Positions 38,540 through 41,500 of a DNA stretch of 64,000 nt are shown here, one piece after another (position 1 is the first letter of the stretch; every line of letters starts with the position of its first letter). The DNA is from Oasisia sp. SBJ-2009 (Eukaryota; Annelida; Polychaeta; Sabellida; Siboglinidae): NCBI GenBank assembly GCA_964017155.1, contig OZ024866.1:19133404-19197403 (forward strand). The letters are read 5' to 3'. The notes beneath the pieces are model-generated. The model did no database searches. It was not told the DNA's origin and saw only the letters and a program-made list of their open reading frames with translations. The position numbers were made by a program, and so were the translations under genes.

Positions 38540-41500
38540 CTGTATGAGTTGGTGTTCTGACTGCTGCGTTGATTGGAAGTGGTCCTTGAGGAGAGACTGA
38601 GTGAAGCTGTCGTGCAGTCGGTAGCCCTCTGCCTCCCCCTGAGGGTTGCCACACAGCCGGTACAGGTCTACAACACACACAGCCAGTACAGGTCTACAAC
38701 ACACACACACAGCCGGTACAGGTCTACAACATACACACACAGCCGGTACAGGTCTACAACACACACAGCCGGTACAGGTCTACAACACACACAGCCGGTA
38801 CAGGTCTACAACACACACAGCCGGTACAGGTCTACAACACACACACACACAGCTGGTACAGGTCTACAACACACACAGCCGGTACAGGTCTACAACACAC
38901 ACACAGCCGGTACAGGACTACAACACACACAGCCGGTACAGGTCTACAACACACACAGCCGGTACATGTCTACAACACACACAGCTGGTACAGGTCTACA
39001 ACACACACAGCCGGTACAGGTCTACAACACACACACAGCCGGTACAGGTCTACAACACACACAGCCGGTACAGGTCTACAACACACACACACAGCTGGTA
39101 CAGGTCTACAACACACACAGCCGGTACAGGTCTACAACACACACAGCCGGTACAGGTCTACAACACACACATACAGCCGGTACAGGTCTACAACACACAC
39201 AGCCAGTACAGGTCTACAACACACACAGCCGGTACAGGTCTACAACACACACACACAGCCGGTACAGGTCTACAACACACACAGCCGGTACATGTCTACA
39301 ACACACACAGCCGGTACAGGTCTACAACACACACACACAGCTGGTACAGGTCTACAACACACACAGCCGGTACAGGTCTACAACACACACACACACACAG
39401 CCGGTACAGGTCTACAACACACACACAGCTGGTACAGGTCTACAACATACACACACAGCCGGTACAGGTCTACAACACACACAGCCAGTACAGGTCTACA
39501 ACACACACAGCCGGTACAGGTCTACAACACACACACACAGCCGGTACAGGTCTACAACACACACACATAGCTGGTACAGGTCTACAACATACACACACAG
39601 CCGGTACAGGTCTACAACAAACACAGCCGGCACAGGTCTACAACACACACAGCCGGCACATGTCTACAACACACACACATAGCTGGTACAGGTCTACAAC
39701 ACACACACACAGCCGGTACAGGTCTACAACACACACACATAGCCGGTACAGGTCTACAACACACACAGCCAGTACAGGTCTACAACACACACAGCCGGTA
39801 CAGGTCTACAACACACACACACAGCTGGTACAGGTCTACAACACACACAGCCGGTACAGGTCTACAACACACACACACACAGCTGGTACAGGTCTACAAC
39901 ACACACAGCCGGTACAGGTCTACAACACACACAGCCGGTATAGGTCTACAACACACACACACAGCTGGTACAGGTCTACAACACACACACACACACAGCC
40001 GGTACAGGTCTACAACACACACAGCCAGTACAGGTCTACAACACACACAGCCGGTACAGGTCTACAACACACACAGCCGGTACAGGTCTACAACACACAC
40101 AGCCAGTACAGGTCTAAAACACACACAACCAGTACAGGTCTACAACACACACACACAGCTGGTACAGGTCTACAACACACACACACACACAGCTGGTACA
40201 GGTCTACAACACACACAGCCGGTACAGGTCTACAACACAACAGCTGTATTCGCCTTGTATGTGGTGTAATGTGTTACGAACAAATTTAAATTGGATCTGG
40301 TGCTACATTAAATTAAATAAATTATTTTTATTAACAACATATAACAAACATGAACACACATTTATGTATTCAAGATATCTGGAGTGCACTGTATTAAAAA
40401 TATAAATTTCTCATGTGTGTATACGAAAATCATACCGTAAATGGTGGCAAATGTTGCTAAGTAACTGTACGAATCATTATTGTGTTGGTAACTGTTATAA
40501 CATATGCATCTCACTGATAAATGCTTCATGAGACATAGTCTACCCATATGATCTTACCTTTAAGTAGTGCAGATGCCCATAGTTGCACATGTACATCAGG
40601 AATCTTCCCAGCTAGTTGCATTGCTGGTGTGACAAGATTTAAGGCTTCCTGTAAATTACATCAAATAAATGAGGTGACAGCCTATATTGTTTTTCACTAA
40701 CGTAATGAACATTCAACTTATATCTTAGAAGTTGTTTTAACACAATGACCATTGGCAATATCAAGCACATAAATGTTGGCTTTGCAACAACAACATAACA
40801 AATAACAACAAATATTGTGTTTCTTATGATTTACTTAAGAAAATGCAAAGTGACTGAAATAATTAAACCAACCTGGCTGTTGCCTAACGATAGAAATATG
40901 TGTCCAAGAAGCACTAGTGAGCACGATGTCAGACGATTCAAATCTTCTGCGTTCGCCATTTTGAGAGTTTCCCTGAGGTAGCGTCTGCAGAAAAACAAAG
41001 TTGACGATGTCAGACAAATTAGGGAGAGACAACTTACGAAAACGGAATTTTTTTAACTGCCATTATTACCACAACTTTGGTAAAGAAAGCATGTTGTAAA
41101 CAAAATAATGGACATATTTTTAGTTTCTCAATGCTAACATCTGGTATAAACACGAAAAACAAAATAATCTATACTGTTAAATTGCTTTTGATTTGCTTGT
41201 GCTATTGGTTAAATAAGTGTAAACATTGTTGACCTGTCATTTAATAAGTACATGTTATCACCCACAAGACTTACTGACATCTAACCAAACACTGACGGGT
41301 GTGTCATCGCGTCAAATGTGCTCCTGTTGCCAAGACTTACTGACATCTAACCAAACACTGACGGGTGTATCATTGCGTCAAATGTGCTCCTGTTGCCAAG
41401 ACTTACTGACATCTAATCAAACACTGACGGGTGTCATCGCGTCAAATGTGCTCCTGTTGCCAAGACTTACTGACATCTAACCAAACACTGACGGGTGTGT

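Follow-up and report, generated by a model that had tools for sequence, protein, structure and literature searches.

How does a splice acceptor, together with the opening of its own exon, come to stand in 57 tandem copies, and do the surplus copies matter to the gene? This is the question raised by the MAU2 locus in a 64,000-nucleotide stretch of the annelid Oasisia sp. SBJ-2009 (contig OZ024866.1, positions 19,133,404 to 19,197,403; hereafter the window). A minisatellite in intron 16 ends in the start of exon 17 itself, which leaves 56 decoy acceptors beside the real one. It is very likely that this array is a mirage-type minisatellite, a kind described in amphioxus, and that it arose when the junction underwent tandem duplication and its copies multiplied within the intron, with selection preserving the one that forms the exon. 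The original prediction had recognised an array built from a splice acceptor and coding sequence with the exon as its last copy, a description confirmed by Tandem Repeats Finder (TRF) and by a parse of the units, and had treated it as a single curiosity; it belongs instead to a named class and recurs in the genome. The features concerned are as follows, a slash marking the splice junction.

37876..57651, minus strand: MAU2 gene in 18 exons, one of them a microexon of 18 nt (57329-57312); product 595 aa, Cohesin_load
40558..40648, minus strand: MAU2 exon 16, end CTTAAAG/GTAAGA, phase 1, the upstream partner of exon 17
38650..40244, minus strand: acceptor array in MAU2 intron 16, 57 copies (56 intronic and the exon copy) of TTGTAG/ACCTGTACCGGCTGTGTG(TG)n, unit 26-34 bp
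38540..38667, minus strand: MAU2 exon 17, of which the opening 18 bases form the final copy of the repeat

The MAU2 gene

The exons of MAU2 were initially located by tblastn with a presumed human MAU2 sequence. The gene identity given in the original prediction stands: an intact frame runs through the 18 exons, across 16 GT-AG introns and one GC-AG intron, and the product matches Pfam Cohesin_load (PF10345) at 8e-125 over residues 9-539 of 595 and positions 1-584 of 585 of the profile. Both the Pfam match and the clean frame are independent of that query. Comparison of the protein with the PDB gave no match. The Pfam match stops at residue 539, before exon 17, and the placement of that exon is based on frame, splice sites and alignment with what we take to be the human protein (DL...CGN). 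Exon 16 ends in G and exon 17 opens AC CTG TAC CGG CTG TGT GGC, in phase 1 (G/AC), a frame that bears out the Leu-Tyr-Arg-Leu-Cys expected at the start of the exon. The microexon encodes WSLSQT and has AG and GT flanks. Intron 11 (window 44636-45018) has a GC donor, CTG/GCAAGT.

Anatomy of the acceptor array

TRF placed the array at 38650-40244 with a period of 26 and 57.3 copies, and parsing of the minus strand gave 57 units, 56 upstream and the exon copy, so that the array first described as having about 60 copies is real and its exact count is 57. In each unit an acceptor is followed by a copy of the 18 bases with which exon 17 opens (ACCTGTACCGGCTGTGTG; 17 had been reported) and then by a tail rich in TG whose length varies. 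The acceptor motif is TTGTAG in 56 copies and TTTTAG in one, and the intronic units measure 26 bp (n=32), 30 bp (n=16), 28 bp (n=3), 34 bp (n=3) or 32 bp (n=2). They fall into 21 types, and no higher-order repeat was found in their order, the longest repeated run being 3 against a shuffle average of 3.2. Within the 23-bp core, 19 of the 33 substitutions lie at its single CpG; CpG decay was considered as a reading of this figure and dropped, given that the copies are related and the 19 substitutions are not 19 separate events.

The exact 24-mer formed by TTGTAG and the 18 exon bases occurs in 30 of the 57 copies, the exon among them, and the exon copy is identical to the array consensus across 23 bases. 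Such identity is what gene conversion would yield, and raises the possibility that the repeat overwrote the start of the exon instead of arising from it. This is improbable for two reasons: first, the exact 24-mer has 30 matches in the entire 764-Mb assembly, every one inside the MAU2 array. Second, the exon peptide aligns with the presumed human MAU2 sequence, which suggests that the coding part is probably ancestral. Given that long arrays are easily mis-sized, it might also be argued that the repeat number or the junction copy is an assembly artefact; this is extremely unlikely, since the units are non-identical (21 types in 56) and similar arrays are found at unrelated exons.

The tails of the units encode UG tracts, the longest run per unit reaching at least four repeats in 55 of the 56 intronic units and at least six in 14. 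The available text of two papers (PMC5289002, PMC11163724) describes TDP-43 as favouring long UG repeats and as repressing, in mouse, cryptic exons flanked by UG, and the tracts may thus bind a putative TDP-43-like protein that silences the decoy acceptors. This is a lead only and very unlikely to be correct, given that the real acceptor is preceded by the same type of tract and that the consensus units of the two donor arrays of the window, described below, are without one.

Reading frames from the upstream acceptors

All 56 upstream acceptors lead to a stop, at most 38 residues in, and although 21 of them are in frame by length, none is open into exon 17. Reading from the acceptor of a 26-bp unit ends at the TAG that belongs to the acceptor after it, and 26 bp is also the length of the unit adjoining exon 17; both points had been foreseen in the original prediction, which described a built-in stop. 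That stop exists at every upstream acceptor but is not special, as 60% of 1000 shuffles of the unit order were likewise without any open upstream acceptor. It is ordinary for such units and tends to be the usual product of phase 1 and mostly 26-bp units. For the same reason a fail-safe stop maintained by selection is not supported. The further claim that a 30-bp unit would add ten residues in frame is correct as arithmetic, but the exon has no such unit beside it in this assembly, and a change of the MAU2 protein through length variants would depend on another unit standing beside exon 17.

These frames bear on whether the array is a functional regulator, in which alternative acceptors or unit-length alleles alter the MAU2 protein or its dosage, for instance via nonsense-mediated decay. 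Any use of the upstream acceptors would indeed cut protein output, given that every one leads to a stop, and a 30-bp unit beside the exon would lengthen the protein by ten residues. A regulatory role is nevertheless quite unlikely: first, the absence of an open upstream acceptor is shared by the majority of shuffled orders. Second, mirages in amphioxus seem not to disturb normal splicing, as far as the available text of the relevant papers goes (PMC3087553, PMC3902484).

The array is more readily explained by tandem duplication of the junction. A short stretch over the boundary of intron 16 and exon 17, comprising the acceptor and 18 coding bases, would have been duplicated in tandem, its copies would have spread into the intron by slippage or unequal exchange, and the exon copy would have been retained via selection on the protein. 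The exon-proximal acceptor would be chosen through exon definition, because only the last copy has a real donor one exon length downstream. Use of an upstream acceptor would give a frame with a premature stop, and the mis-spliced RNA would presumably decay.

Junction arrays elsewhere in the window

Further arrays lie in MAU2 and in a second gene of the window, a HECT gene which is presumably NEDD4-like.

41265..42112, minus strand: donor array at MAU2 exon 14, 14 GTAAGT, spacing 59-66 bp; begins at the junction, ~1 exon base shared
44611..44752, minus strand: acceptor array at MAU2 exon 12, 42-bp unit, TRF 3.4 copies, TTTCAG and ~25 exon bases
4917..5758, plus strand: donor array at exon 7 of the HECT gene, 20 GTAAGT, 40-bp spacing (one of 80), 2 exon bases shared
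220..12432, plus strand: 3' part of the presumed NEDD4-like HECT E3 ligase gene, 11 exons modelled, Pfam HECT 1.2e-101
9626..12311, plus strand: 49-bp x 55 array, stops 18 bp short of the last HECT exon's acceptor; adjacent to the junction, which it does not span
46179..47461, minus strand: 28-bp array (TRF rows merged), stops 24 bp short of the MAU2 exon 10 acceptor; adjacent to the junction, which it does not span
37973..38286, minus strand: 46-bp array, stops 28 bp short of the MAU2 exon 18 acceptor; adjacent to the junction, which it does not span

Across the 27 modelled introns of the two genes, TRF (period at least 10, copies at least 3, overlapping rows merged by hand) gave ten arrays, one being a GT-rich array of 24 bp. 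Four of the ten end within 3 bp of a splice junction or cross it, against a mean of 1.2 under random placement within introns (P 0.02), and seven end within 30 bp of a junction, against 2.5 (P 0.002). The four junction-tied arrays are those at the MAU2 exon 17 acceptor, the exon 12 acceptor, the exon 14 donor and the HECT exon 7 donor. As a separate observation, the consensus unit of the 49-bp array carries a pyrimidine-rich CAG, and its copies would be adjacent decoy acceptors without exon sequence.

Recurrence in the genome

The assembly comprises 33 contigs and 764 Mb, nearly all of it in fourteen contigs of 42-71 Mb. A blind sample of fourteen 10-kb stretches, one per large contig at equal coordinate (118 kb without N), gave 14 TRF rows at a period of at least 15 and at least 4 copies, and twelve arrays were inspected after two rows had been merged and one 16-bp row omitted. 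One of the twelve crosses a junction: it holds 11 acceptors, ctgcag/GGCGGCAGCTCTGACATTG, mostly at 68-bp spacing, the last of which is the acceptor of a myosin-XV-like exon (PDB match 9.4e-16) with 19 exon bases in the unit. Another begins ~12 bp past the donor of an exon which we take to be OATP-like. Inspection of the remaining ten, by eye only, recognised no exon border.

The genome-wide motif searches were for donor motifs, that is, three GTAAGT (or GGTAAGT) spaced 16-46 bp, with the reversed motif as control. All arrays on contig C1 with units longer than ~13 bp among the matches listed were followed up, 9 from GTAAGT (2.0-5.3 Mb) and 19 new ones from GGTAAGT (to 32.9 Mb); three microsatellites of 4-8 bp are excluded from these 28. 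Ten of the 28 begin at the donor of a coding exon recognised by a database, the match ending 0-6 residues before the donor.

Recognised by PDB chains: SOAT1 (7e-9), AMPK-gamma (5.5e-11), SMARCD (1.2e-11)
Recognised by PDB chains: XPB (1.3e-15), 10-formyl-THF dehydrogenase (1.4e-14), formin-like 3 (1.3e-12)
Recognised by Pfam: DOCK C/D (4.3e-11), dsRBD (6.3e-8)
Recognised by Pfam: laminin IV B (4.7e-6, just under its cut-off), EGF (1.9e-4, under its cut-off)

The DOCK peptide matched Pfam and gave no match in the PDB. In eight of these ten the unit holds at least 13 bases of the exon's own end, the share reaching 36 of 38 bases in SOAT1 and 21 of 23 in SMARCD; the exceptions are DOCK and 10-formyl-THF dehydrogenase. 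Six further arrays adjoin exon-like sequence without confirmation (best CARD at 0.004, the rest with no or weak Pfam matches), and at the start of the other 12 no exon was found. Arrays at exon edges are present in about a dozen other genes among those sampled in the genome.

Arrays open in frame

In two of these genes the units differ from those of MAU2 in being open and in frame. The XPB-like exon carries a 33-bp array (contig C1, ~32.86 Mb; 648-901 of the stretch examined), at a site which we take to lie just before the ATP-binding loop, and in that stretch none of the 5 downstream GTAAGT donors shifts the frame or meets a stop; translated, the units give GKLSGVIVLPC with slight variations. 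The AMPK-gamma exon carries a 39-bp donor array (contig C1, 3825300-3826300) with the repeat peptide VSTTGYLVLTQLN; its first three downstream donors, at +39, +78 and +117 nt, keep the frame, which stays open; use of the fourth would shift it, and the fifth leads to a stop. At the SOAT1, DOCK, SMARCD and CARD-like arrays every downstream donor in the stretch examined meets a stop. With open, in-frame units in XPB and AMPK-gamma, repeat-lengthened proteins seem more plausible there than in MAU2.

A wider proposal would be that junction minisatellites occur genome-wide in this annelid, in hundreds of genes, with unit numbers and lengths acting as heritable alleles that tune splicing, and that essential proteins acquire repeated peptides, through alleles or decoy donors, where open units are a multiple of three, as in XPB (33 bp, GKLSGVIVLPC) and AMPK-gamma (39 bp). 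This is speculative and unlikely; the figure of hundreds of genes scales up the 8 exons recognised among the listed GGTAAGT arrays, which span 33 of 764 Mb.

Weighing of the proposed tandem-duplication origin

Several points weigh against duplication of the MAU2 junction as the origin of its array, or against a wider tie between arrays and junctions. What has been said of acceptor choice, of the decay of mis-spliced RNA and of any polymorphism of the array rests on the DNA of one assembly. The intron placement test was devised after the pattern had been noticed, and both donor arrays of the window share just 1-2 bases with their exons. The tandem motifs were not enriched over their reversed controls, with 30,119 matches against 39,720 for GTAAGT and 3,374 against 5,521 for GGTAAGT. 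As GTAAGT is itself rarer than the reversed word (113 against 198 single occurrences in 182 kb), there is no clear excess or lack of tandem donors relative to single words. Finally, of the 31 GTAAGT sites in the window outside the two donor arrays, 5 are known MAU2 or HECT donors, and the 10 of 28 found on contig C1 is no more than a modest excess over this base rate (binomial P 0.009, rising to 0.04 if the rate is 0.20 and to 0.14 if it is 0.25), the rate being a lower bound because it counts two genes.

Given that tandem donors do not rise above control, the arrays need no affinity for splice sites: in a minisatellite-rich genome arrays may be seeded anywhere, junctions included, and the finding could arise in this way. 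Tandem duplication of the junction followed by retention of the exon copy remains very probable as the origin of the MAU2 array.

Other features of the window

A search of the window with Rfam gave one tRNA only. A long exon at 18464-20530, near MAU2, is presumably that of a GATAD2 (p66)-like gene, and the two genes also lie near each other in human. A reverse-transcriptase-like fragment, judged by eye, lies on the opposite strand in a MAU2 intron (55750-56250). A rhodopsin-type receptor reading frame occupies 61421-62869, with a partial second copy at 63007-63363 (by eye).

Comparison with known systems

The host can be placed from a contig of 15,483 bp, C33, which is mitochondrial by a Pfam match to COX1. 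Over the ~14 kb examined it carries thirteen protein genes on one strand, named from their translations, in the order cox1-cox2-atp8-cox3-nad6-cob-atp6-nad5-nad4L-nad4-nad1-nad3-nad2; only the start of nad5 was covered, and the gap between nad4 and nad1 is large enough for the rRNAs. The derived annelid positions given in the available text of PMC2639372 are nad6/cob after cox3, atp6 between cob and nad5, nad5 and nad4L/nad4 swapped, and nad3 between nad1 and nad2. All four are found in C33, so that the host is most likely an annelid and amphioxus is rejected as the source, provided that this contig is no contaminant. A long AT-rich simple repeat lies between atp6 and nad5 (~12900-13470), and some annelids have a control region between these genes (PMC2639372, available text).

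Amphioxus mirages are tandem repeats across exon-intron boundaries, found at either intron end, and many of their copies carry splice signals, as set out in the available text of PMC3087553 and PMC3902484. These papers describe them gene by gene, in globin genes (PMC3087553) and PGBD5 (PMC3902484), and Adh3 (Canestro et al. 2002), with units of 10-72 bp, and troponin C are cited there as further mirage genes. Instability of their length is reported in the same text, and normal splicing, seemingly undisturbed, is suggested (PMC3087553, PMC3902484). The MAU2 unit likewise spans the exon-intron boundary with exon sequence (18 exon bases, the exon being the last copy) and carries AG splice signals in its copies (TTGTAG in 56 of 57, TTTTAG in 1), and both 5' and 3' boundaries of several genes are involved, with 2 donor and 2 acceptor arrays in the window and further exons beyond it. 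This likeness is anatomical and drawn from a single genome assembly. The cephalochordate host of the mirage papers is not shared, a matter of taxonomic range and not a defining property. The present cases differ from those of amphioxus in that the host is an annelid, one array reaches 57 copies, two genes of a single window hold four junction-tied arrays, and further such arrays turn up in sampled stretches. A literature search, with most subscription journals outside its coverage, found no apparently relevant account of such arrays outside amphioxus. The MAU2 array appears to be of a kind already known, and its occurrence outside amphioxus, in an annelid, to be what is new. Mirages at conserved annelid exons suggest a general by-product of minisatellite-rich genomes, and such arrays provide a natural test of how the spliceosome chooses among dozens of near-identical sites.

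There is a resemblance, and no more than a resemblance, to the cryptic exons repressed by TDP-43 (PMC5289002, available text), in that UG repeats stand beside presumably unused splice sites. Another point of comparison is the model of intron gain by tandem duplication of AG/GT proto-splice sites, cited in the available text of PMC3087553: as in that model, local duplication over a splice signal could turn repeat copies into new exons or introns. Unlike in that model, exon 17 and its partners form the ordinary MAU2 frame, with no new intron shown. With long-read cDNA, intron gain or the lengthening of proteins via duplicated splice junctions becomes testable across many genes of one species.
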